A stretch of DNA of 64,000 nt, taken from positions 310,001-374,000 of the forward strand of contig NZ_JXAL01000016.1 of NCBI RefSeq assembly GCF_000829465.1, read 5' to 3'. A model generated the notes under the pieces. The model was not told the origin of the DNA. It did not search any database and was given only the letters and a program-made list of their open reading frames with translations. The position numbers and the translations under genes were made by a program. Below are positions 274 to 62,610 of this stretch, in pieces (the stretch's first letter is position 1; each line of letters begins with the position of its first letter). This stretch comes from Cohnella kolymensis (lineage in GTDB: Bacteria; Bacillota; Bacilli; Paenibacillales; Paenibacillaceae).

Positions 274-2724
274 ATGAACGTTTCTTATCGGTGGTTATCC
301 GACTATATCGACTTGAGCGGCATCACACCGCAGAAGCTGGCGGAGATGATGACACGCGGCGGGATCGAGATCGATTCCGTTCCATCGCGCAACAGCGGTA
401 TCAACAACGTCGTCGTCGGCTATGTGAAATCGCGGGAGAAACATCCCGATGCCGACAAGCTGGGCGTCTGTATCGTTGATGCCGGGACAGGCGAGGATCT
501 GCAAATCGTATGCGGAGCGCCCAACGTGGCTGCCGGACAGAAGGTGCCGGTAGCGAAAGTCGGCGCAAAATTACCCGGCGATGTGAATATCAAGCGGGCG
601 AAACTGCGCGGTGTGGAATCGCAAGGCATGATCTGCTCCGCACGCGAGCTGGGCATGAACGACAAGCTTTTGCCGAAAGACCAGCAAGAAGGCATTATGG
701 TGCTGCCGGGAGATACGGAGATCGGCACGGATATTCTTGAAGTGCTGGCATTGGAGGATTCGATTCTGGAGCTGGATTTGACGCCGAACCGTTCAGACTG
801 CCTGAGCATGCTCGGTGTAGCTTACGAGGTGGCGGCTTTGACCGGCCGGCCTCTGACGCTGCCGGATCCGTCGAAGGATTTACATGCGTCTGCGGACAAG
901 ACGGAGGATCATGTTAAGGTCTCCATCGGTAATCCGGAGGTCTGTTCGCTCTATACCGCACGTTATATCAAAGGCGTGAAGATCGGACCTGCGCCTCAGT
1001 GGATGCAGAACCGTCTCATTGCCGCGGGCATCCGGCCGATTAACAACATCGTTGACATTACGAACTATGTCATGCTGGAGTACGGTCAGCCGCTTCATGC
1101 TTTCGATGCGGCCAAGGTATCCGGCGGACGCATTGAGGTGCGCCTGGCTCGAGAGGGCGAAGTGCTCGTTACTCTGGACGATCAGGAGCGTAAGCTGCAG
1201 CCTCATATGATTGTCATTGCCGACGGTGATGACAAGCCGATCGGTCTGGCGGGTGTGATGGGCGGAGCGAATTCTGAAGTGACACCCGAGACGACGGATA
1301 TTATTCTGGAATCCGCCAAGTTCGACGGCGGCGCCGTGCGCCGCACTTCCCGGCAATTGGGATTGCGGTCGGAGGCGTCGGCCCGTTTTGAAAAAGGGGT
1401 GGACCAGGGCCGGGTTCGTGAAGCTCTGAATCGCGCGGCTGTGTTGATGGTGCGTCATGCGGGCGGCCAGCTCACCGAAGGAGTTGCGGAGGCGGAGACT
1501 GCCGATGTGGAACCGGTCAAGGTTGAATTGTCGCTGTCCCGCGTAAACGGCATGCTGGGAACCGACCTGTCCTCTTTGGAGATTAAGACGATCTTGTCCC
1601 GCTTGCAGTTTGATGCTGTTGCGAATGGAGAAGGCTCCTGGACGGTTACCGTTCCTACACGCCGCGGCGATATTTCGCGCGATGTGGATTTGGTCGAGGA
1701 AGTGGCGCGTTTGCACGGGTATGATGAAATCCCGACCACGCGCATCGAAGGGCCTGCGACCACGGGAGCGTTGACTAAATCCCAGGCGATACGCCGTGAG
1801 CTTCGCTCGATTTTGACGAACGGCGGACTTCAAGAGGCGATCAGCTATTCTGTTACGTCATTGGAACAGGCTCATTTGTTTAAGGAGTTAACGGATGGCG
1901 CTCTTCCGATTGCTCTGGCTATGCCGATGAGCGAAGAGAGAAGCGTGCTGCGCACCGCGCTGCTGCCGAGTCTTTTGGAATCGGCGGCTTACAATCTGAA
2001 CCGCAAGAACAATGCGCCGGCACTGTTCGAAATCGGCAGCGTATACCATTCCGATGAAGAGGTTCTAACCCGGCTGCCTCAGGAGAAACCGCGCGCAGCT
2101 TTGCTTGTTGCCGGGAACCGTCGTTCGGCGAGCTGGAATCGCGCTGGTGAGGCTGTTGATTTTTATGACGCAAAAGGTTTGCTGGAGACGGTATTCGATC
2201 GGTTGGGATTGGCTGGGCTGATCGCATACGAGCCGGCGCAGCCTTCAGGATTCCATCCGGGAAGAACGGCCGCAATCACGCTGAAGACGGAACGGGGAAC
2301 GGAAACGATCGGTTACGTCGGGCAGCTGCACCCCGACTTGCAAAAGCAGTTCGATCTGCCCGACACATATGTTGCCGAGATTGAATTGTCTGCGGTATAT
2401 GACCATGCGGACCGCCGGATCAAGTATCGAGCGCTGCCGCGCTACCCAGCAATGGAAAGAGACATTGCCGTTGTTGTCGACCGTGCTGTTTCGGGAGGCG
2501 CGCTGACGGAAGCGATCAGATCGGTCGGCGGCGAGCTGTTGGAATCGGTGGAGGTGTTCGACGTATACACCGGGGACAGGATCGGCAGCGACAAGAAAAG
2601 CGTTGCTTTAGCCCTGGTGTACCGTCACGCTGAGCGCACTTTGACGGATGAAGAAGTGTCGGCGGTTCACGCCCGTATTCTGGAAAAGTTGGAACAATCT
2701 TTCCACGCCGAGCTGCGCAAATAG
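274..2724 (+). CDS. pheT: Phenylalanyl-tRNA synthetase beta subunit
   Basis: 816 residues, the normal length for a long bacterial PheT. The order is an N-terminal tRNA-binding (EMAP/OB) domain at about residues 40-150, the B3/B4 editing region near 210-390 (motifs NNIVDITNYVMLEYGQPLHAFD and GLAGVMGG), the B5 domain near 410-480, a catalytic-like core and a C-terminal FDX-ACB anticodon-binding domain (about 725-815, starting around RYPAMERDIAVVVD). The ATG start follows a GAGGGGAG ribosome binding site. It pairs with PheS from the gene just upstream. Confidence 0.97.
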   Translation: MNVSYRWLSDYIDLSGITPQKLAEMMTRGGIEIDSVPSRNSGINNVVVGYVKSREKHPDADKLGVCIVDAGTGEDLQIVCGAPNVAAGQKVPVAKVGAKLPGDVNIKRAKLRGVESQGMICSARELGMNDKLLPKDQQEGIMVLPGDTEIGTDILEVLALEDSILELDLTPNRSDCLSMLGVAYEVAALTGRPLTLPDPSKDLHASADKTEDHVKVSIGNPEVCSLYTARYIKGVKIGPAPQWMQNRLIAAGIRPINNIVDITNYVMLEYGQPLHAFDAAKVSGGRIEVRLAREGEVLVTLDDQERKLQPHMIVIADGDDKPIGLAGVMGGANSEVTPETTDIILESAKFDGGAVRRTSRQLGLRSEASARFEKGVDQGRVREALNRAAVLMVRHAGGQLTEGVAEAETADVEPVKVELSLSRVNGMLGTDLSSLEIKTILSRLQFDAVANGEGSWTVTVPTRRGDISRDVDLVEEVARLHGYDEIPTTRIEGPATTGALTKSQAIRRELRSILTNGGLQEAISYSVTSLEQAHLFKELTDGALPIALAMPMSEERSVLRTALLPSLLESAAYNLNRKNNAPALFEIGSVYHSDEEVLTRLPQEKPRAALLVAGNRRSASWNRAGEAVDFYDAKGLLETVFDRLGLAGLIAYEPAQPSGFHPGRTAAITLKTERGTETIGYVGQLHPDLQKQFDLPDTYVAEIELSAVYDHADRRIKYRALPRYPAMERDIAVVVDRAVSGGALTEAIRSVGGELLESVEVFDVYTGDRIGSDKKSVALALVYRHAERTLTDEEVSAVHARILEKLEQSFHAELRK

Positions 2725-2840
2725 GCAGGAAACTGCCGTCGTTGCAGCGAATACGTGTAGACAACAAGTGATCGGGATCGTTCGCTGTAACTTATTTTCA
2801 CGTCCGTTGACATAATGGACGCAGGTAGGAGGGACACGCC

Positions 2841-4160
2841 GTGAATGCCAATGAAAAAACGCGTGTGACCGTTGACATATATGGAACGCAATATACGCTT
2901 ACGGGTCACTCCAGTTCGGATCATATGAAAAGAGTTGCCTCGCTCGTCAATGATCAAATGTATAAGGTTGAATCCGGGGCACCGCGATTGGATTTGCCGC
3001 GTTTAGCGGTACTGGCTGCAGTAAATATGGGCGATGAGCTGGTACGTCTGCGCTTGGACACCCAGAGGCTGCAACAAGCTGAAAGCGAGCGTGTCCGTCT
3101 GTTGGAGGAATTGGAACGCCAGAAGGCGGAAGCCGCGCAAGAGCTGGACAGCATCATCGCACAGGCGACTGCGGAACTGGAGAGAATGAGGGCCGAATCC
3201 GCCGAGCGAGAGGAAGCTTTGAAGGCCGTTGCGGTTGATGATCTGGCGGCTTCCAAAGCTCAGGCAGATAAGGAACTGGAGAGCATAAAAACCAAGTTTG
3301 CCGAGCAGTGGTCCGCTCTTAAAGCCGAGCTTGAAGCGGGGAAGGTCTCCTCATCGGCAATGAAAGATGAGCTGGAAGCCGCATATACCGTGCAGATCGA
3401 ACAATTCAAACGAAATCATGCCGTTCTTGCTGAGAAGTCCGAAAGCCGGCACGCTGCGGAGCTGAAGGCGGCAGAAGCGAAATATGCGGCCGAACTGAAC
3501 GCCGCGCTTAAGGAAAAGCAGACGTTTGTGCGGGAACGTGAAGAGTGGCATGTACGGGAGCAGGAATGGAATAAGCTGCGCGGTCAGCTGGAAGGTGATC
3601 TCGAGCATTGGCTCCGGGAAGCGGAGGATAAGCGCCGGGCCGTTGCGGAGCAGCAGGAAATGCTGCAGGCGATCGAAGCGCAGACGCAGGAGCGAATCCG
3701 CGAGCATGCGGCAGCCCGCGAGAAGGCGGAGCGGGAACGCGACGAGCTGAGCGGCATGCTTCGGGAGCGAGAGGAGCGCGACAAGTCGTCGCGCGAATCG
3801 CTGCAGCAGATGCAAGAGCGGCTTGTCGCCGCTCAGCGGGACGGGCGCGCCGCAACGGAACGGGCTGCGGCGCTGGAAGCACGGGTGGCCGAGCTCAGCG
3901 CGGCCGAGGCTGGCATTCGCGAAGCCGCGGAGCGGGCGTCGCGCGAGCTTGAGGCGGCCAGAGCGGAAGCGGCCGCCGCGGGTTCTCGCGAGGCGGAGTC
4001 GACCGCCTCGCAAGAGCAGCTGCGCGAGCAAGCTGCTCGCGGGCTGCGGGCGCAAGCGGAGCTTGATGCGCTCAAGCGGGAGCACGCCGGGCTGCGGAGT
4101 GAATACGCGAAGCTGCAGACGGAGTACAACGAGTGGATCGATTTGTTGGAACAACCGTGA
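2841..4160 (+). CDS. zapA: Cell-division protein ZapA with a long coiled-coil extension
   Basis: Residues 1 to about 85 match ZapA, the small FtsZ-binding protein that supports Z-ring assembly (VDIYGTQYTLTG, then HMKRVASLVNDQM and LAVLAAVNMGDEL). The family usually ends near 85-110 residues. Here the frame continues for about 340 more residues of charged heptad-like sequence rich in Glu, Ala, Arg and Gln with hardly any helix breakers: a long predicted coiled coil. The GTG start sits seven bases after AGGAGGG. The position right after pheT matches Bacillales, although the cvpA and polX genes that usually lie between zapA and mutS2 are missing. The tail function is unknown; a spacer or second protein contact is an inference. 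Confidence 0.85.
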   Translation: MNANEKTRVTVDIYGTQYTLTGHSSSDHMKRVASLVNDQMYKVESGAPRLDLPRLAVLAAVNMGDELVRLRLDTQRLQQAESERVRLLEELERQKAEAAQELDSIIAQATAELERMRAESAEREEALKAVAVDDLAASKAQADKELESIKTKFAEQWSALKAELEAGKVSSSAMKDELEAAYTVQIEQFKRNHAVLAEKSESRHAAELKAAEAKYAAELNAALKEKQTFVREREEWHVREQEWNKLRGQLEGDLEHWLREAEDKRRAVAEQQEMLQAIEAQTQERIREHAAAREKAERERDELSGMLREREERDKSSRESLQQMQERLVAAQRDGRAATERAAALEARVAELSAAEAGIREAAERASRELEAARAEAAAAGSREAESTASQEQLREQAARGLRAQAELDALKREHAGLRSEYAKLQTEYNEWIDLLEQP

Positions 4161-5411: not shown

Positions 5412-5795
5412 TCAACTGCGCGGATTGTCGCGTCCGCCGGCTCCGCCCTTAACCGTATCGAACGGGTTGGCCACGGGAATGAACAGGTCGATGATCCCGA
5501 TGACCAGAGCAGCCAGGATCGCGCCGATCAGCGTCGCCCTCACATTGTCAACAACGAACTGAGCTAACCAAATGACGAGTGCGCTCGTTAAGAACCCGAC
5601 GATGCCCCTGCCGAAAGGTGTCACCCTTTTGCCGAAAATTCCTTCAATGATCCAACCGAGCAGCGCGATAACCAAAGCGAGCAGAAGGGCACTGCCGAAG
5701 CCCCCTACGGAAAATCGGGGCACTAGGTAACTAACGACCATCAGGACGATGGCAGAGACAATGAACCGAACCACTGTGCTTAAAAAACGCATCAT
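5412..5795 (-). CDS. YvlD/phage-holin-4-like small membrane protein
   Basis: 127 residues from the ATG at 5795, chosen because GAGGAGG lies six bases upstream. Four hydrophobic segments (around residues 5-25, 35-55, 60-85 and 95-115) alternate with short loops. The layout and the ending IDLFIPVANPFDTVKGG match the YvlD group often named 'phage holin family'. No phage genes surround it, so the name should not be read as lysis. In Bacillus the group is linked to envelope-stress operons; its role here is unknown. Confidence 0.75.
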   Translation of the reverse strand: MMRFLSTVVRFIVSAIVLMVVSYLVPRFSVGGFGSALLLALVIALLGWIIEGIFGKRVTPFGRGIVGFLTSALVIWLAQFVVDNVRATLIGAILAALVIGIIDLFIPVANPFDTVKGGAGGRDNPRS

Positions 5796-5940
5796 GCTTG
5801 ACCTCCTCAACATTGAGGTTTTAACCGTTGAAGCGCCGGTTTGATGTATAGTGTGTCCTATGTTCTTTCCAGTATGTGCGCCGGTTTCTCAAGTTCTCCA
5901 GATTCGGCTATAATATAGGTCGAAGGAGTTGAATATCGCC

Positions 5941-8300
5941 GTGAACGACAAGGCGTTATATACATTAGAATACCAAAAAATCATTCATCGCCTCACCGGA
6001 TTGACGGCCACCGGCTTAGGCCGCGAGGAGGCAGAACAGCTCAAGCCGTCCCGTGAACTGCAGATAGTGGAGCGCAGATTGGCCGCAACGGATGAAGCGG
6101 TTCGAGCGGTGTCGTTGAAAGGCACTCCTCCCTTCGGCGGAATAACGGATGTAAGGCCCGCTCTTCGGCGCGCCAAGCTGGGCGGCGTGCTGCAGCCGGC
6201 TGAATTGATGAGTGTCGCCCAATTCATTATGGGATCGCGCAGGCTCACCCGGTATATTTCCTCGGCTGCAGAAGAAACTTCCATGCCTTTATTGGAAGAT
6301 CTGTGCGAGCCATTAACCGATTTCAAGCCGCTTGAAGATGAAATCCGGCGCTGCATCGACGAACAGGGGGATGTGCTGGATACAGCCAGTGCGGAGCTCG
6401 CGTCTTTGCGCCGGGATATCCGGGTGAATGAGGGCCGCGCAAGGGAGAAGCTGGAAAGCCTGATCCGATCTGCGTCCATTCAGAAAATGCTGCAGGAAAC
6501 CCTCATTACGATGCGTAACGATCGCTATGTTATCCCTGTGAAACAGGAATATCGGGCGCACTTCGGCGGCATTGTCCATGATCAATCCGGGAGCGGGGCG
6601 ACGCTTTTCATCGAGCCGGAAGCGGTAGTGCAGATGAACAACAAGCTCCGTGAGCTGACAATAAAAGAACAAAACGAGATCGAACGAATATTGCGCAGGC
6701 TCAGCGAACAGACGGGGGAACGTGCGGAGCTGCTTACGGGGGACGCGGAAATTTTAGGGCGGATCGATTTTATTTTCGCCAAAGCCGCGCTCGCAGAGGC
6801 GATGTTCGCCACATTGCCTGCTATGAATGCGGAGGGACGGTTGTACTTGCGCAGGGCCCGCCATCCTCTGATCGATATTAAACAAGTGGTGCCCATTGAC
6901 ATCGAGCTCGGAGAAGATTATTCCGCTATCATCGTTACAGGACCCAATACCGGCGGTAAGACCGTTTCACTGAAAACGATCGGCTTGCTCAGCCTGATGG
7001 CCATGTCCGGCTTGTTCATTCCGGCGGATGACGGCAGCCGCCTATGTGTATTCGACGGCATCTATGCCGATATCGGCGATGAACAGAGCATTGAGCAGAA
7101 TCTGAGCACTTTCTCCAGTCATATGACGAATCTCATTTCCATGTTAGGACAGGTCACTTCGCAAAGCTTGGTGCTGCTCGACGAGCTAGGGGCGGGCACC
7201 GATCCGGCAGAAGGCTCCGCTCTTGCCATCGCCATACTCGAGCATTTGCACAGGGTCGGCTGCCGGTTGATCGCCACGACCCATTACAGCGAATTGAAGG
7301 CTTATGCTTATAACCGTGAGGGCATCACCAACGCCAGCATGGAGTTTGATGTCGCTACATTGAGGCCGACTTATCGGCTCTTGGTAGGCGTCCCTGGGCG
7401 CAGTAACGCTTTCGCTATTGCGGAGCGGCTGGGTCTGCCGGCCGGCATTATCGACCATGCCCGCGGGGAAGTGAGCGAGGATGAGCTGAAGGTCGATACG
7501 ATGATTGCTTCCTTGGAGCAGGACCGGATTCGGGCGGAATCGGAACGGAAGATCGCCGAGAGCTGCGCCGGGAAATAGAAACATTGCAGAATCAAATTCA
7601 GGAAGAGCGCCAACGCTTCCAAGAACAAAAAGCCAAGCTTATGGAGGAAGCCCGGGAGCAAGCCCGCGCATCCGTCGCCAAAGCCAAGCGCGAAGCGGAA
7701 GAGATCATTTCCGATCTCCGCAAGCTTGCGATGGAAGAAGGGGCTTCCGTCAAGGAGCACAAGCTGATTGAAGCCCGCAGGCGTCTGGAGGACGCGGTGC
7801 CCGCACCGGCAGCGAAGCCGGCAAGAACAACCGGCGGGAAGCCGGTTAAGCTCGAGCCTGGCGATGAAGTGAAGGTTTTCAGCCTGGGCGGGCAAAGAGG
7901 GCACATCGTAGAGCTGTCAGGCGATTCGGATGCGCTCGTTCAGCTCGGGATCATGAAAATGAAGGTGCCCCTTGCAGACTTGGAGCCGGTTCGCAAAACC
8001 GCGCAAGCCAAGCCGCAGGCACAAGCAACGATCGTCAAGCGTTCCAGGGACGAGAATATTCGTACGGAGCTCGATTTGCGCGGCGCGACACTGGACGAAG
8101 CCATCATGGAGTTCGACCGTTTTTTGGATGAAGCGTTTCTGTCCAATCTGGGGCAAGTGTACGTGATACATGGTAAAGGTACCGGAGCTCTGCGGACCGG
8201 AATTCAAGAGTTTTTGCGCAAACACAAGCATGTCAAAAGCTATCGTTTGGGGCAATTCGGGGAAGGCGGAGCCGGTGTGACGGTAGCCGAGCTTCACTGA
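5941..8300 (+). CDS. mutS2: Endonuclease/recombination suppressor MutS2, frame broken by one base
   Basis: Two adjoining frames (to 7578, and from about 7560 to 8300) together give a normal-length MutS2 of about 785 residues. The first part carries the core and clamp and the ATPase: Walker A TGPNTGGKTVSLK, Walker B VLLDELGAGTDP, and the ATTHYSELKAYA motif. The second part has the KOW-like region and the C-terminal Smr nuclease domain (LDLRGATLDEA, HGKGTGALR). The break is near 7560, where GCCGAGAGCTG fits GCC-GAG-GAG-CTG with one G missing. The GTG at 5941 is my preferred start; a TTG at 5929 touches GAAGGAG and is the alternative. Probably intact in the organism. Confidence 0.9.
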
Positions 8301-55754: not shown

Positions 55755-55897
55755 CTGACGTAAAGCTGACGCTATCGACATTATAGCATGCACGGCGAGT
55801 TTTCAACCGTGATATTGGGCAACTTCGCTTATCCCTGCGCATAGTTATGTAGTACGTTCCTATGATGGCTAGAGAAAGAGGGCGAGGAGGAAACGGC

Positions 55898-57793
55898 ATG
55901 GATATCTTCAAACGGATCGCGGATTATCGGGCCGAGAGTGAGAAGCTGAACTGGTCGGGGACGTTCGGTGAATATATTGATTTGCTTCGTGGTAACAATA
56001 CTCCAGCGATGACGGCGCATGCCCGGGTTTACGACATGATCGTTTCTCAAGGTGTGGAGGAGAAGGGCGGCAATAAAAAATATACGTTTTTCAATTCTGA
56101 AATTTTCGGGCTCGACCGTACGATGGAGAAGCTGGTGGAGGAATATTTTCATTCTGCCGCGCGGCGGCTCGATGTGCGCAAAAGAATCTTGCTCCTGATG
56201 GGTCCGGTGAGCGGCGGTAAATCGACGATCGTGACGCTTCTGAAGAAGGGATTGGAGCAATACTCCCGTACCGACAGAGGAGCCATTTACGCGATCAAAG
56301 GCTGCCCGATGCATGAGGAGCCGCTCCATCTTATCCCGAACGAGCTTCGCGTTGAGGTTGAGCAGGAGCTGGGGGTGCGGATCGAGGGAAATCTCTGTCC
56401 TTCATGCCAAATGAGACTAAGAACGGAATTCGACGGCGACATCGAAAAGGTTCCGGTGGAGAGGGTGCTCATATCGGAGGAAAACCGGATCGGGATCGGC
56501 ACGTTCAGCCCTTCGGATCCGAAATCCCAGGACATCGCCGATTTGACGGGGAGCATCGACTTTTCCACGATAACGGAATTCGGTTCGGAATCGGATCCGA
56601 GAGCTTACCGCTTTGACGGCGAACTGAATAAAGCCAACCGGGGACTAATGGAATTCCAGGAAATGCTCAAATGCGACGAGAAGTTTCTATGGAATCTGCT
56701 TTCCCTCACGCAGGAGGGCAACTTCAAAGCAGGACGCTTTGCTCTTATAAGCGCCGACGAGCTCATCGTCGCCCATACGAACGAATCGGAGTACAAAGCG
56801 TTCATTGCGAACAAGAAAAACGAAGCGCTGCAATCGCGTATGATCGTCATGCCGATCCCCTATAACCTGAAGGTAACGGAAGAAGAGAAGATTTACGTGA
56901 AGCTGATCGGGCAGTCCGATATGAGCCACGTTCATATTGCCCCTCATGCTTTGCGCGCCGCCGCCATTTTCTCCATCCTCACCAGATTGAAGGAATCGAA
57001 GAAGCAGGGCATGGATCTCGTCAAAAAAATGCGAATGTACGACGGGGAAGAGGTAGAAGGCTACAAGGAAGCGGATTTGAAGGAAATGCAGAACGAGTAT
57101 GTGGAAGAAGGCATGTCGGGCATCGACCCGAGGTATGTCATCAACCGGATTTCCAGCGCGCTGATCAAGCATGATTTGCCGTGTATCAACGCTCTAGATG
57201 TGCTCCGTGCGATGAAGGACGGCCTCGACCAGCATCCCTCGATTACCAGGGAAGAGCGCGAAAGATATTTGAACTTCATATCCGTTGCCCGCAAGGAATA
57301 CGATAATCTCGCCAAGAAAGAAGTGCAGAAGGCGTTCGTTTATTCTTTTGAAGAGTCCGCCCGCACATTGTTCGAGAATTACCTGGACAATATCGAAGCC
57401 TATTGCAACTGGGCTAAGATCAAGGATCCGCTGACAGGCGAAGAAATGGATCCCGATGAGCGGTTAATGCGGTCGATCGAGGAGCAGATCGGAATCTCGG
57501 AAAATGCGAAGAAAGCGTTCCGGGAGGAGATTCTCATCCGTATATCCGCGTATTCGCGCAAAGGCAAAAAATTCGACTACAGCACGCACGAGCGCCTGCG
57601 CGAAGCCATAGAGAAAAAGCTGTTTACCGATTTGAAAGATATCGTGAAGATCACAACATCGACCAAAACGCCGGATGAGAATCAGTTAAAGCGCATCAAC
57701 GAGGTCACGAAGCGCTTGATCGACGAGCACGGTTATTGCCCGGTTTGCGCCAACGAGCTGATGCGGTATGTGGGAAGCTTGCTAAACCGGTAA
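55898..57793 (+). CDS. prkA: PrkA serine protein kinase / AAA+ protein
   Basis: 631 residues, ATG after GGCGAGGAGG. The N-terminal AAA+ region has Walker A MGPVSGGKST (about residues 102-111) and a CPSCQMRLR metal-like motif; the C-terminal half is the PrkA kinase-like domain (VINRISSALIKHDLPCINALD, CPVCANELMRYV). Induced early in sporulation in Bacillus. The usual partners yhbH and spoVR do not follow here. Confidence 0.95.
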   Translation: MDIFKRIADYRAESEKLNWSGTFGEYIDLLRGNNTPAMTAHARVYDMIVSQGVEEKGGNKKYTFFNSEIFGLDRTMEKLVEEYFHSAARRLDVRKRILLLMGPVSGGKSTIVTLLKKGLEQYSRTDRGAIYAIKGCPMHEEPLHLIPNELRVEVEQELGVRIEGNLCPSCQMRLRTEFDGDIEKVPVERVLISEENRIGIGTFSPSDPKSQDIADLTGSIDFSTITEFGSESDPRAYRFDGELNKANRGLMEFQEMLKCDEKFLWNLLSLTQEGNFKAGRFALISADELIVAHTNESEYKAFIANKKNEALQSRMIVMPIPYNLKVTEEEKIYVKLIGQSDMSHVHIAPHALRAAAIFSILTRLKESKKQGMDLVKKMRMYDGEEVEGYKEADLKEMQNEYVEEGMSGIDPRYVINRISSALIKHDLPCINALDVLRAMKDGLDQHPSITREERERYLNFISVARKEYDNLAKKEVQKAFVYSFEESARTLFENYLDNIEAYCNWAKIKDPLTGEEMDPDERLMRSIEEQIGISENAKKAFREEILIRISAYSRKGKKFDYSTHERLREAIEKKLFTDLKDIVKITTSTKTPDENQLKRINEVTKRLIDEHGYCPVCANELMRYVGSLLNR

Positions 57794-59214
57794 ACTTAAG
57801 CCTCCTCGCCACCCTGCACCTGGGTCTCCCAAGTGTATAGGGTGTTTTTTTATTTACGCGACGCGGGGAGCACACCGGTTCCCGAAGAGGCAGATTGATG
57901 CGGAACGAGGTTGTTCCGTCGTCCGAACTCTCCACGGCGATCTCTCCGCGGTAATGCCGGATCCGCTCCATGACGATAGCCAGTCCTAGACCGGAATGTC
58001 CTTCACCTTTGGTGGAATAACCGGAAATGAAAATCTTTTCTTTTTCCTTGTCATCCAGCCCCCGCCCTTCATTGACAACTTCTAGCAGTATGCTGTTATC
58101 TTGCAGCTGCATGGACGCGTGCACCTTTCTCTGATCGGGAGGAAGGAGAAGCGCCTCGTCAAAAGCGTTATCGACGAGATTTCCCATAATTTTCACGATA
58201 TCGATAATACGGACGGAGGATTGCTGCACGTTCCAGTTATCCGGGAGTTCATAAGTAAAAACGATTCCTTTGCCGAGCGCGACGGTCAGCTTCGCTTGAA
58301 CGAACGCAGCCAAGGCAGGCGACGAATGATGCACAATTTCGCTCACGTCCCGGGTTTCTTTTACCAGCTCGCCGACATAAGACTTCAACTGTTCCGTTTT
58401 GCCCATCTGGGCCATCGTGTGAATAACCTGCACATGGTTGAGAAAATCATGGCGCTGTCCGCGGATTGAAGTAAACATGTCGTTGATATCGTCCACGTAC
58501 ACCTCTTGGGTAGCGAGCACCGCCTGCTCCCGGGTGCGAATCAGCAGCCTAAGGGTGAGGGCCAAGGCATACAAGCTTACGATTATTATCATGAATATAA
58601 CGATAGAGACGATAAGCGGCTTATGTTGATCGCTGCTGTACTGGATAATAATCAACCCGGCAAGCAGCACAAATTGCGAAATCATGAGCACAATGACTTT
58701 GGTCAGGGCACTTCGTTCGCCTTCCATCACTAAAACGAACAGCTGCTTCGCGGAAAAAACGTTGCGTTTCCGTATGAACCATGAAGCGGCCAATATGATC
58801 AGCAGTTGAGGGTACAAGACGCCGAGGGCCTCATAGAGATGCTCGCCGATGAGACTCTCCCGATTCTGAACCCCCAGTATAAATATGGCAAAAGCAAGAC
58901 TGATCAGATCCATGACCATAGCGAACACATTGCTGAAAACATACATATATAATTTTTGCTTCGTATTTAGATCTTTAAACAGAATAAAAAACAACGCAAG
59001 CAGCGCAGTGTGAATTAATCAGGTGCAGATAGGAAGGAAGAAACAGCATTAAGAGATCGGTATAGATGGCGTGCGCAAATGTAAATACGGCAAGCTGAGC
59101 GTATAGACGCTTAGGTTGCCGTTGAAGAAAGGAAAAGACAAACAGCAGATAGATATACGTTTGCGGGAGAGATACCAGGATATGCAGTTTCAGAATGTCC
59201 GGCAAAGTATCCAA
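57705..59214 (-). pseudogene. AgrC-like sensor histidine kinase, frame broken by one base
   Basis: The first ~66 residues (from ATG 59214, MDTLPDILKLHILVSLPQTY) and the rest (from about 59015) are in different frames; removing one T near 59013-59016 gives YLHLIN-HTALLALFFILFKD. The whole has six or seven transmembrane helices (to about residue 210), a SpoOB/AgrC-type phospho-acceptor (RGQRHDFLNHVQVIH) and a GHKL ATPase (NLVDNAFDEAL, STKGEGHSGLGLAIV). The natural end is probably near 57865; beyond INLPLREP the frame crosses the prkA terminator and 89 bases of prkA. Divergent from the agrB operon, so it likely senses its peptide. Confidence 0.82.
57810..57851 (+). terminator. Terminator after prkA
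   Basis: CACCCT...AGGGTG long imperfect stem with T7. The convergent kinase frame reads across it. Confidence 0.8.
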
Positions 59215-59319
59215 TGCTGAAACCTCTTTTGGATGAAGTGGTATAAATGAACTTTATAATCGTTATTTGATACCATTAATTATAGTCGGGTTGAGCAATT
59301 ATATATAGCATTAAATTTT

Positions 59320-59348
59320 TTGATGCGTTTTCTGAGAATAATGATAAA
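59320..59348 (+). promoter_or_regulatory. Possible promoter of the agr-like operon
   Basis: TTGATG, 17 bases, GATAAA in the AT-rich region between the divergent kinase and operon. A second TATAAT (about 59355) has no matching -35. Confidence 0.35.
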
Positions 59349-59398
59349 ATATTTGTATAATTCACCAGTGTCGTCGTCACAGAGGAGAACACCTTCAG

Positions 59399-60061
59399 AT
59401 GAGCTTATTCCAATTTATTTTCTTTTCTTCTCTAGAATACTTTGGTTCCTTTCTGTTTGTTCTGGTACAATTTCGTTTCTCCTTAAGGGAAAACATCTCC
59501 AAAATCATCCTGATTTCAATATTACTTTCATTTGTTTCTTATTCATTCATCAATAATGACCTGGGTGCGATCTCTCCTCTCATTCAAAACTTAATATTTT
59601 TGATTTATATCCAGGTCGCACTGAAAGTAAGCGTGACGAATTCCATCATCATGGTTCTTACAGGATACATCGCGTTCGGATTGGTACAGACCTGCATCAT
59701 TGCGGCGGCCTCACATGTCGGTTTGATTGTACTGGAGACATTGGAAGCTGCGACTTCCACTGCGTATATCCTCCAGACATGTTCCTTTATCATGATATCG
59801 ATCCTAAGCTTTTTGACTTATTTCTTCAAAGGGGGCTTCAGCTTTATCGAGGCCCGCAGCCGGTTTTCCAAGAACTCGCTGACCGGCAAAAACAAAGGGT
59901 TTATCGTTTACATCCTGATTGCGTTCGTCGTCACTCTGTTTTCCAATCTAACACTGCTGAAAAGCGACAACCCGCCATATTTGCTGATCGCATCCGTTCT
60001 TATGCTGACTCTCGTTATACACGTTTATATGACATTGAGAAGGGATGAAACGAATGATTGA
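59399..60061 (+). CDS. Polytopic membrane protein resembling a kinase sensor domain without kinase
   Basis: 220 residues; ATG after AGAGGAG. Six or seven hydrophobic helices (about 5-25, 32-50, 58-80, 85-110, 125-145, 170-190, 194-212), a short basic C-terminus (TLRRDETND) and no soluble domain. The helix layout is similar to the N-terminal halves of AgrC-type kinases and to that of the divergent kinase. First gene of the agrB operon, overlapping agrB by eight bases. A role as receptor, transporter or immunity factor for the peptide is inference. Confidence 0.75.
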   Translation: MSLFQFIFFSSLEYFGSFLFVLVQFRFSLRENISKIILISILLSFVSYSFINNDLGAISPLIQNLIFLIYIQVALKVSVTNSIIMVLTGYIAFGLVQTCIIAAASHVGLIVLETLEAATSTAYILQTCSFIMISILSFLTYFFKGGFSFIEARSRFSKNSLTGKNKGFIVYILIAFVVTLFSNLTLLKSDNPPYLLIASVLMLTLVIHVYMTLRRDETND

Positions 60062-60596
60062 AGCGCTCGCCACACGCATTGCCGTGAAGCTGAAAGAAGC
60101 GAATCCGAAGGATACGGCCAGCGTGGAGGTTATGAGATATGCTCTCATCGGAATCTTACATAATGCCATCACCTTCTCGGCGGCATTTCTAATCGGATTG
60201 TTACTCGGCAAGCTCTTAGCGACATTCCTGGCAGCCGTCAGCTTTATGGCTTTACGTTTCGTTTCAGGCGGATACCACTTCAAAACTCCGTTATCATGCT
60301 TTATTTTTTCAACGATTATTTTCATTGCCATCCCTTTTATTCCACTTCAATCCGACTCTTACTGGATCGTTAACACCATCAGCTTGGCGTTGACGGCCAT
60401 TTTCGCACCTTCGAACATTAAAGAACATATTCAAGTTTCGGAAAAGTATTTTCCCTTGTTTAAACTGATCTCCGTTGTCATCGTAGTGATAAACTACTTC
60501 TGGCTAAATCCCGTAATCACTTTGGCATTATTTGCACAGTCTGTCACTCTCATCTATATTAAAAGAAAGGAGGTGGGCACCAATGAAAACGAGTAA
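60054..60596 (+). CDS. agrB: AgrB-like peptide-processing membrane endopeptidase
   Basis: 180 residues from the ATG at 60054 (GAGAAGGG at suitable spacing; ATG 60045 is too close to it). The catalytic pair of AgrB is kept: His75 and Cys82 in GGYHFKTPLSC, seven residues apart as in staphylococcal AgrB (77/84). Four or five transmembrane helices. It trims the AgrD precursor and closes the ring. Overlaps the peptide gene by 14 bases. Confidence 0.92.
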   Translation: MIEALATRIAVKLKEANPKDTASVEVMRYALIGILHNAITFSAAFLIGLLLGKLLATFLAAVSFMALRFVSGGYHFKTPLSCFIFSTIIFIAIPFIPLQSDSYWIVNTISLALTAIFAPSNIKEHIQVSEKYFPLFKLISVVIVVINYFWLNPVITLALFAQSVTLIYIKRKEVGTNENE

Positions 60597-60714
60597 AGCA
60601 GCTGCTATTGTTTCAAAGTTATTGGCGTTATGCGCAGTCGTGTTTGTCAGCACAGCATCTTATTGGGTCCTTTATCGTCCTGAAACTCCAAGTGAATTGA
60701 AGAAACAAGCGTAA
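60583..60714 (+). CDS. agrD: AgrD-like cyclic lactone autoinducer precursor
   Basis: 43 residues; AAAGGAGGTG before the ATG, inside the end of agrB. An amphipathic N-terminal helix (KTSKAAAIVSKLLALCAVV) is followed by the core and a charged tail PETPSELKKQA. Aligning the tail TPSEL with the staphylococcal VPKEL puts the five ring residues at Ser26-Tyr-Trp-Val-Leu30. A serine in the ring-closing place predicts an ester (lactone), not a thiolactone. Cys17 lies in the leader helix and is unlikely to be used. Confidence 0.85.
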   Translation: MKTSKAAAIVSKLLALCAVVFVSTASYWVLYRPETPSELKKQA

Positions 60715-60744
60715 TTCACAGCTTCGCAAGGAGGGGATGAAAAC

Positions 60745-61134
60745 ATGTCGGAACAAATTCGTTTGCTCGATCGTGACGGGAATTCATGCATAGTGAATTT
60801 GAATGATCTGATCGCGATTAAGCCGACAAGCGATGGTCCGGAGTTCCATACGAAGGACTGCATGTATTTCTACCCCACAACGCTGGACGAGCTCCTTATC
60901 GTTTTTAAGGATCTCGGATTCGAACGGTTGGACCGTACTAATCTAGTGAACATGAATCACGTTCAGGCTTATGATCCTAAAGCTCGCAAGGTTTATTTCG
61001 AGAATCCTTGGAGCAAAGACAGCCAGTTTGCCACCGTTTCTGAAGCCAACAAGAGCAAGGTAGAGCATTTGGCCAAAGAGGACAAGCCGCAGTATAACAC
61101 GTTTCCCAAACCGTCTTTGTTGTGGAAGAAGTGA
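60745..61134 (+). CDS. LytTR DNA-binding protein without receiver domain
   Basis: 129 residues, AAGGAGGGG before ATG. The LytTR domain spans about residues 5-100 (LDELLIVFKDLGFERLDRTNLVNMNHV is typical, in parts FKDLGFERLDR and LVNMNHVQAY). There is no CheY-like receiver, so it cannot be phosphorylated in the usual way. Fourth gene of the agr-like operon, ended by a terminator. It may regulate the locus directly. Confidence 0.85.
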   Translation: MSEQIRLLDRDGNSCIVNLNDLIAIKPTSDGPEFHTKDCMYFYPTTLDELLIVFKDLGFERLDRTNLVNMNHVQAYDPKARKVYFENPWSKDSQFATVSEANKSKVEHLAKEDKPQYNTFPKPSLLWKK

Positions 61135-61263: not shown

Positions 61264-62610
61264 ATGACAATACTTAAAAATTGGTATGCTATTCTTCTTT
61301 TAGCTCTGCCCTCGCTATTCGCATTCGCGACGCAAACGGTGACGGGTAACATTAACCTGATTCTGGTGGGCGACCTCGGGCCTACGGCCATTGTTGTGGT
61401 GGGTGTTTCTAATATCATTATGTATAACGTTTTCGCCGCATTTTCCGGAGTCGGCCACTCGGTGAATTACCTGGTCGCCCAAAATTACGGTGGGAACGAC
61501 ATGCGCAAAGGCATGCAGAGAACGTATCTTGCCCTCGTGGTGAGCGTTGGAGTTGCTCTGTTCATCGCCTTGGCCGGATGGCTGGCTAGCGGCGCGATCT
61601 TACGCGTCACAGGGGCAAGCGGCAACGTGCTTGCGGCGGGCGATGCGTATTTGGAAATGCGTTTTTACGCGATGTCGTTCAGCATGATCAATTTCGCTTT
61701 TCATGGTTTTTTCCGCGGGGTCGGAGATACGCGAATTTCCATGATCATATCCATCATCAACAATGTGCTGATCGTGGCCTTGACTTATGCGCTCACTTAC
61801 GGGCACTGGGGGCTTCCGGACTTAGGGCTCATCGGCGCCGGCTGGGCCATCCTGATCGGAGAAGCGGCAGGTCTTCTGCTGTGTGCCGTCGTGTTCTGGG
61901 GGCTGATGCATCGTCGATTCGGAACGAGGAACATTCCGGCAATGAACTGGAAAGAGCTGGGCCTGATCGGGAAAGAGAGCGGGAAGCTGGGCTTGCAGGA
62001 ATTCTCAATGAGCGTATCTATGTACATTTTTACGATATTCGTGTTTACGCTTGGCGAATTCGCGGTGGCGGCGAATGAGGTGGCCCTCAGCGTCATGTCA
62101 TTCGGATTCATGCCGGCGTTCGCGTTCGGAGCGACGGCGACAATTATCGTGGGACAGGAAATCGGACACAAAAGGCCTGATCTCGCTCGAAGAGCGGGAA
62201 CGGATGTGGCGATTCTGGGCGCAATATTCCTCATTGTCCTGGGTACGATTGAATTGGTCTGGGCGGAGCCGATCGCAAGGTTATACAGTGACGATCCGGC
62301 GGTATATGAACTTGCAGCTTTCCTCATCCAGGTATCCGCGTATCTGCAAATCTTTGACGGTTTCTATAATATCTACGCCGGAGGACTTAGGGGGATAGGC
62401 GATACGACGTTCCTTATGCGCGCTTCCCTTGTACTCAGCTGGTGCGTGTTCGTGCCTTCAAGCTATCTGTTCGTTATCGTGCTCGATTGGGGCAGTCTTG
62501 GCGCATGGCTGTCGTTATATTCATTCCTTGTTGTGTTAGGCTTGTCCGTCATGTTCCGCTACTATCGCACGGACTTCAACGCCGTTCGGGTGAAGGAAGC
62601 GGGGGTCTGA
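61264..62610 (+). CDS. MATE-family efflux transporter
   Basis: 448 residues from the ATG at 61264 (GAAGGG somewhat far upstream). Twelve hydrophobic helices in two halves. Typical features: VVVGVSNIIMYNVF near helix 2, ARNYGG-like AQNYGGNDMRKG, FRGVGDTRISM, and in the second half EIGHKRPDLARRAG and GGLRGIGDTTFLM. Drug/cation antiporter; substrate unknown. Separate from the agr operon by a terminator. Confidence 0.88.
   Translation: MTILKNWYAILLLALPSLFAFATQTVTGNINLILVGDLGPTAIVVVGVSNIIMYNVFAAFSGVGHSVNYLVAQNYGGNDMRKGMQRTYLALVVSVGVALFIALAGWLASGAILRVTGASGNVLAAGDAYLEMRFYAMSFSMINFAFHGFFRGVGDTRISMIISIINNVLIVALTYALTYGHWGLPDLGLIGAGWAILIGEAAGLLLCAVVFWGLMHRRFGTRNIPAMNWKELGLIGKESGKLGLQEFSMSVSMYIFTIFVFTLGEFAVAANEVALSVMSFGFMPAFAFGATATIIVGQEIGHKRPDLARRAGTDVAILGAIFLIVLGTIELVWAEPIARLYSDDPAVYELAAFLIQVSAYLQIFDGFYNIYAGGLRGIGDTTFLMRASLVLSWCVFVPSSYLFVIVLDWGSLGAWLSLYSFLVVLGLSVMFRYYRTDFNAVRVKEAGV

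Follow-up and report, generated by a model that had tools for sequence, protein, structure and literature searches.

A four-gene agr-type unit lacking kinase and receiver domains in Cohnella kolymensis and its relatives, and in phages

We analysed a window of 64,000 nucleotides from the soil bacterium Cohnella kolymensis (contig NZ_JXAL01000016.1, positions 310,001 to 374,000) and focused on an agr-like quorum-sensing locus, which an earlier note based on the sequence alone had described as a four-gene operon divergent from a kinase. The four genes were confirmed, all on the plus strand: a membrane protein of 220 aa (MP, 59399-60061), the peptide-processing protease AgrB (60045-60596; PF04647, E 1e-24), the signal-peptide precursor AgrD (60583-60714; TIGR04223, 32.7 bits; cut-off 19) and a LytTR DNA-binding protein of 129 aa without a receiver (60745-61134; PF04397, E 1.3e-8), which is likely the output regulator. 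Adjacent genes overlap or lie 30 nt apart and each has a plausible ribosome-binding site before it, a layout that looks like one operon and from which co-transcription is predicted. AgrB has a single match in this genome (4.34 Mb, 34 contigs) and carries the GGxHx6C motif, with the catalytic His and Cys, which is present in 57/57 AgrBs of the window type. AgrD shows the cyclic core and acidic P-x-E-L tail of agr precursors; among the 35 AgrDs of the genus, the ring position is occupied by C in 23 and by S in 12, and the predicted ring in the window is SYWVL, closed through serine as a lactone, with the ring length taken from the spacing in the agr family. The operon holds neither a sensor-kinase fusion (AgrC) nor a receiver-LytTR protein (AgrA). 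As the note had pointed out, no receiver-bearing regulator of the AgrA type adjoins it, only the LytTR protein, and the signal path must therefore differ from that of classical agr.

The expectation that this is a conserved, defined system was borne out in the genus set (37 genomes; 35 loci counted, two not fetched), where MP, AgrB, AgrD and LytTR are complete in 33 loci and the remaining two (L120 and L128 in our numbering of loci) are without an adjacent LytTR gene. Across a family sample of 148 genomes, AgrB was present in 92, MP in 90 and matches to the LytTR profile, paralogues included, in 124. The places of these genes were joined from lists of 150 for each, those of AgrB obtained with the window AgrB, a query biased towards AgrBs of the same kind; among the AgrB matches listed, MP lies directly upstream at 129/150, and 103 have the downstream LytTR as well. 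The corresponding numbers outside the genus are 101 with MP and 78 with MP and LytTR among 122 listed AgrB places. The four genes thus occur together far beyond chance, and the arrangement that had been regarded as unusual is the common form in the family among AgrB places found with the window AgrB. For 21 of the listed AgrB places no MP had been listed; MP profiles run on the 16 of them that were fetched revealed an adjacent MP in five (L207, L208, L209, L214 and L221).

Since the first kinase profile missed three of the five kinases of a positive set, the search for kinases around the unit was repeated with broader profiles. In the 20 loci examined from the rest of the family, the three profiles used detected a single kinase, a protein of 1021 aa in L164 that also matches the receiver profile. 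Pfam analysis of 109 neighbouring open reading frames (ORFs; 180-750 aa) matched 140 families, and the 25 most frequent of these, beyond which the list does not reach, include neither kinases nor receivers. The receiver profile had three matches in the genus stretches (L120, L121 and L126), none of them on the LytTR protein of the unit, and a receiver-LytTR regulator belonging to the unit was not found in the genus stretches or in the 20 family stretches. An additional agr locus, distinct from the unit, occurs in several family genomes (L210, L211, L213 and L215); its AgrB is more distant and is accompanied by a kinase and a receiver protein.

We further examined what MP is. It has no Pfam family above the cut-off, and a search of 398 Bacillota genomes with a profile built from 36 MPs gave, outside the family, matches at 10 places in nine genomes. 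Eight of these, in seven genomes, are sensor domains in agr loci, and the other two (L195 and L197) are unrelated membrane proteins by reading of their sequences; the E-values are per single genome and the weakest would not be sufficient over 398 genomes, so that the agr context carries the point. The matched sensors belong to fused AgrC kinases in L203 (two), L204 and L205, are encoded separately from the kinase in L201, L202 and L206, and in L200 are kinase-less proteins placed before AgrB and AgrD and then a PAS-type kinase. AgrB is present in all seven loci and a regulator with receiver and LytTR domains in four. The gene order of L205, AgrC-AgrB-AgrD-AgrA, shared by L203 with two AgrCs, parallels MP-AgrB-AgrD-LytTR; these loci, from other Bacillota families, differ from the window unit in having kept kinase and receiver. 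Given the sensor matches and the shared order, the operon resembles an agr locus whose AgrC has lost the kinase and whose AgrA has lost the receiver, and MP, which the note had taken for an extra component, looks like an AgrC-type sensor domain without its kinase. Profile comparison of MP with the set of agr-locus sensors gave 97.9%, a value that is partly circular because the set was chosen through MP matches; the 20 family MPs from outside the genus gave 34.9-94.6% against single sensors, and AgrB and MATE controls at most 0.8%. In three other Bacillota families AgrC is split into a sensor and a kinase gene with overlapping ends (L201:5400-6738, L202:4383-5806 and L206:472-1834), and these loci possibly represent an intermediate step.

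AlphaFold2 prediction of MP from 38 aligned MPs (the window, L032 from Cohnella terricola, L033 from C. cholangitidis and viral loci) gave seven long helices with a pLDDT of 83.5 and a pTM of 0.80; an earlier model from three sequences was weak (pLDDT 67.9). Lysines and arginines of the window sequence, counted by eye, number about 12 in loops 22-35, 73-81, 143-166 and 213-220 and one in the others, which argues for an N-out, C-in topology. Among 26 genus MPs the inside loops are somewhat more conserved than the outside loops (0.61 vs 0.50, one-sided P = 0.035), with the first outside loop as an exception (0.70). The model had no match at E <= 0.001 among PDB and viral folds, and a PDB sequence search with the MP profile returned 0 matches.

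We then compared identity matrices of the proteins by permutation in the 13 loci where the kinase is intact. MP co-diverges with AgrB (r = 0.88) and with AgrD (r = 0.62; both P = 0.0005), and the sensor of the kinase follows LytTR (r = 0.76, P = 0.003) and not AgrD (r = -0.03), AgrB (0.08) or MP (0.14). LytTR is the most conserved gene of the unit, with a mean identity of 0.77. With PrkA as yardstick in 17 loci, the correlations were 0.88 for MP-AgrB, 0.65 for MP-AgrD, 0.62 for LytTR-PrkA and 0.37 for AgrD-LytTR. Because MP, AgrB and AgrD diverge together and the kinase sensor does not follow AgrD, we consider MP likely to be the receptor of the peptide. The same pattern suggests that MP, AgrB and AgrD behave as one exchangeable specificity cassette, with LytTR and the kinase as residents. 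The hypervariable stretch of Staphylococcus aureus agr is given as agrB, agrD and agrC (PMC12312760), and by analogy MP would stand in the place of the AgrC sensor. The overlap of the MP gene with AgrB and their close co-divergence (r = 0.88) could also be read as signs of a helper of AgrB, acting in processing, export or self-immunity, with the receptor elsewhere. This seems quite unlikely to us, since the kinases of agr loci have a sensor domain homologous to MP and since AgrB in those loci stands beside a fused or split sensor kinase with no further MP.

The AgrC-like kinase reported in the earlier note is indeed divergent from the operon, with a main part at 57705-58994 on the minus strand that carries SPOB_a and HATPase_c domains, but its frame is not intact. 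The first ~70 residues sit in another frame (ORF 58975-59214, minus strand), and tblastn with the intact 449-aa kinase of L033 placed residues 8-91 in this frame and 59-445 in the other. At the 3' end the match to the relative stops, yet the frame stays open for about 60 further residues and shares 89 nt with prkA in antisense. A programmed frameshift was rejected, because the two frames match overlapping residues and no slip site was read at the break. On the same grounds, and because the 3' end also runs on, gene decay or an assembly error fits better, and a sequencing error may be the cause. Across the 35 genus loci the kinase is intact in 13, broken in two (the window and L101) and not found in 20, among them L108, whose upstream stretch of only 385 nt cannot be judged. 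The proposed five-gene synteny thus holds for the four operon genes and not for the kinase, which is an optional AgrC-type neighbour, broken in the window genome. One genus member has three tandem intact copies of such a kinase, divergent from the unit (L104:817-4989). MP as a copy of the kinase's own sensor was also considered, and direct profile comparison was negative.

Another reading is that the kinase itself senses the peptide, as AgrC does in classical agr, and signals to a response regulator encoded elsewhere, with MP and LytTR as accessories. It shares SPOB_a and HATPase_c with the AgrC kinases found in agr loci outside the family, its sensor matches the sensors of other agr-locus AgrCs at 95.9% in profile comparison, and 13 genus loci have it in divergent orientation to the operon. 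We nevertheless regard this as very improbable, given a sensor that follows neither AgrD nor AgrB and a gene that was not found in 20 of the 35 genus loci and is broken in the window.

The unit is also carried by temperate phages. A tblastn search with AgrB against phage records gave eight records from five phages (Brevibacillus phages Davies, Emery and Abouo; Paenibacillus phages Paisley and Harrison). In the four stretches fetched (Davies, L223; Emery, L224; Abouo, L225; Paisley, L226; about 1604-4019), the order is MP, AgrB, a small peptide and a LytTR protein of 118-122 aa. Davies and Emery have a second MP, and no kinase or receiver was matched in any of the four. The AgrD profile gave no match to the small ORF of Paisley, and the LytTR proteins of Davies and Emery fall below the Pfam cut-off, yet match our LytTR profile. 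In Davies and Abouo the unit is flanked by the integrase gene upstream and by regulator genes downstream, including one of XRE type, and a role in lysogeny is thinkable. Hargreaves et al. described AgrB, AgrD and one or two ATPase-less membrane proteins in Davies, Emery and Abouo (PMC3901668); by profile these belong to the same unit as that of the window, differing in being phage-borne, and a LytTR gene goes unmentioned in the parts of that paper available to us. A 2025 review states that AgrA is lacking from phage agr systems (PMC11945551). The PHROG family phrog_15081, matched by L223:3654-4019 and by the window LytTR, is labelled 'peptidase', a label that is probably wrong.

A search with one AgrB pattern found 37 AgrB-bearing viral contigs (L227-L263), some of them near-copies of each other or of the phage records. 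MP lies directly upstream in 36, the whole unit with its receiver-less LytTR protein is present in 33, and receiver proteins occur in four. Three kinase profiles detected no kinase in the 37 viral or four phage stretches (up to 10.5 kb), and Pfam analysis of 70 larger ORFs of the viral contigs showed none among the 25 commonest of 45 families. The receiver-matching proteins (251-290 aa) lie beside the kinase-less unit at L228:6179-7015, L231:5254-6048, L239:6127 onward and L246:4957-5712, in addition to the LytTR protein in the first three and in its place in L246. Thirteen contigs (L229, L230, L232, L233, L235-L237, L240, L243, L252-L254 and L256; about 5650-6400) have a longer LytTR protein of 235-246 aa, and the one that was read, in L229, looks like two tandem LytTR domains without a receiver.

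These surveys bear on a further explanation, in which MP is a receptor that works with an unlinked histidine kinase, the phosphate passes to an unlinked regulator, and LytTR competes with that regulator for shared promoters, in the manner of BlpS and BlpR. In its favour, L201, L202 and L206 encode the sensor separately from the kinase, the window genome has further kinases and three other LytTR proteins, and a kinase with a receiver adjoins the unit in L164. BlpS of Streptococcus gallolyticus, described as a LytTR-only repressor (PMC8545106), resembles the LytTR protein of the window in belonging to a peptide quorum-sensing locus; it differs, according to the same source, in sharing an operon with the full two-component system that it opposes, of which the window unit has none. 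We consider this explanation unlikely, since 19 of the 20 family loci outside the genus have no kinase near the unit and since a mobile unit without a kinase in any viral or phage stretch would depend on the kinases of its hosts.

In a tree of 45 AgrBs, a branch supported at 100/99 sets off all 36 of the window type, and three family genomes of the agrBDCA type lie on its other side; the tool gave a long-branch warning, and L200 was placed with the kinase-bearing loci despite its kinase-less sensors. The LytTR profile of the unit scored highest against AgrAs of other agr loci (L205, 40.8 bits; L202, 30.4; L203, 26.3; L201, 22.9), with L205 as the closest AgrA LytTR domain by score. Scores were 15-20 bits against the three other LytTR proteins of the window genome, 10-13 bits against the regulators of L210, L211 and L215, 24.3 bits for L212 and 16.4 for L213.

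Known systems resemble the unit in part. Like agrBDCA of Staphylococcus, Listeria and clostridia, it combines AgrB, AgrD, an AgrC-type sensor and a LytTR output with a co-varying cassette of AgrB, AgrD and sensor; unlike it, the window has a sensor without kinase and a LytTR protein without receiver, and the only nearby kinase is optional and broken there. LytTR regulatory systems (LRS) such as HdrRM and BrsRM also encode a receiver-less LytTR protein and a transmembrane protein in one operon without a kinase, and the membrane protein is reported to inhibit the regulator (PMC6193735). The same source, of 2018, gives their activating signals as unknown. Positive autoregulation is a further mark of LRS. 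In LRS the regulator gene lies upstream of the membrane-protein gene, whereas in the window MP is first and LytTR last; the window unit has AgrB and AgrD, lacks DUF3021 and DUF2154, neither of which is among the 10 families matched by the 36 MPs at E up to 0.1, and yielded no direct repeats. MP as a known LRS inhibitor was rejected, as no such Pfam family matched. By analogy LRS is the closest working model, and given the reversed gene order and the lack of repeats the unit may act like an LRS without being classed as one. Related reports include an agr-like cassette in P. polymyxa (Voichek et al., PMC7425212), a count of AgrD-type clusters in a Cohnella genome paper (PMC10308117) and VirS of Clostridium perfringens as peptide receptor (PMC7492741). 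In the parts of the open PMC literature that were accessible, with most subscription papers outside the search, we found no description of the four-gene unit or of a kinase-less agr path in Paenibacillaceae.

Taken together, we favour agr-type peptide quorum sensing without phosphorelay domains, in which MP senses the peptide and controls LytTR without phosphotransfer, and give it a probability of about 0.6. AgrB would trim and cyclise AgrD to a serine lactone with a five-residue ring, as expected from the two protein families. MP, as a seven-helix AgrC-type sensor, would sense this peptide from outside and act on LytTR through its basic cytoplasmic loops by direct contact, either holding and releasing the protein or altering its activity. 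LytTR would then act at promoters, perhaps including its own. MP, AgrB and AgrD would thus set specificity as an exchangeable cassette and LytTR would be the resident output.

Several observations weigh against this reading. Co-divergence of MP with LytTR is slight (r = -0.03 in 13 loci; 0.30, and 0.19 after PrkA, in 17 loci), and the contact between them, like the binding of peptide by MP, is something that we infer from sequence. LytTR is missing beside the cassette in 2/35 genus loci and was not found at 26/129 family MP-AgrB places among the matches listed. A receiver protein occurs in 4/37 viral loci, and in 1/20 family loci outside the genus (L164) the 1021-aa kinase with a receiver adjoins the unit. 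Three LytTR genes (L127, L129 and L130) adjoin prkA without the cassette. MP is not detectably related, by profile comparison, to the sensors of the family's separate agrBDCA kinases (L210, L211 and L215), and homology to these was rejected. LRS-type direct repeats (9 bp, 11-13 bp apart, upstream of the -35 element) were not above dinucleotide shuffles in 24 upstream regions, where the lowest shuffle fraction was 0.13 and weakly conserved repeats could be missed; LytTR direct repeats were rejected on this result.

A broader proposal, which we hold tentatively and at somewhat less than even odds, is that the unit represents a class of peptide quorum sensing without phosphorylation, with direct control of a receiver-less LytTR protein by a kinase-less AgrC sensor, that arose once in or near Paenibacillaceae, is carried by temperate phages, in some of them beside integrase and repressor genes, and possibly sets lysis or lysogeny by a membrane-sensed cyclic peptide, as a counterpart to arbitrium.

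The surroundings of the unit add some detail. Upstream lies prkA (55862-57793, plus strand; PF08298, PF06798) and downstream a MATE efflux gene (61264-62610, plus strand; PF01554, TIGR00797). In the genus, prkA was inside the fetched stretch in 17/34 loci. The three LytTR genes that stand alone by prkA (L127:5033-5437, L129:4581-5024 and L130:2805-3191) come from genomes that have cassettes elsewhere. A pattern search located an extended -10 promoter element, TGATAAAAT, upstream of MP (59342-59350, plus strand), and an element of this type was picked in 23/24 genus regions upstream of MP, by a pattern that itself favours these letters and in a search run without a shuffle control. A ATACCATTAAATATAG-like stretch at about 59250-59290, upstream of the kinase, recurs at the same place in kinase-bearing genus loci and, on the other strand, looks like a candidate extended -10 promoter for the kinase.

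If the favoured reading is true, much of a family, together with its phages, would have an agr pathway reduced to a receptor and a DNA-binding domain, and direct signalling from a membrane receptor to LytTR would become testable with a known kind of ligand. Genomes reported to have only 'cyclic lactone autoinducer' genes may then hold complete sensing units, and phages could bring their own output regulator, in contrast to the AgrA-less phage agr described in the parts of the 2025 review available to us (PMC11945551). The kinase-less four-gene unit suggests a simpler way of hearing peptide signals.

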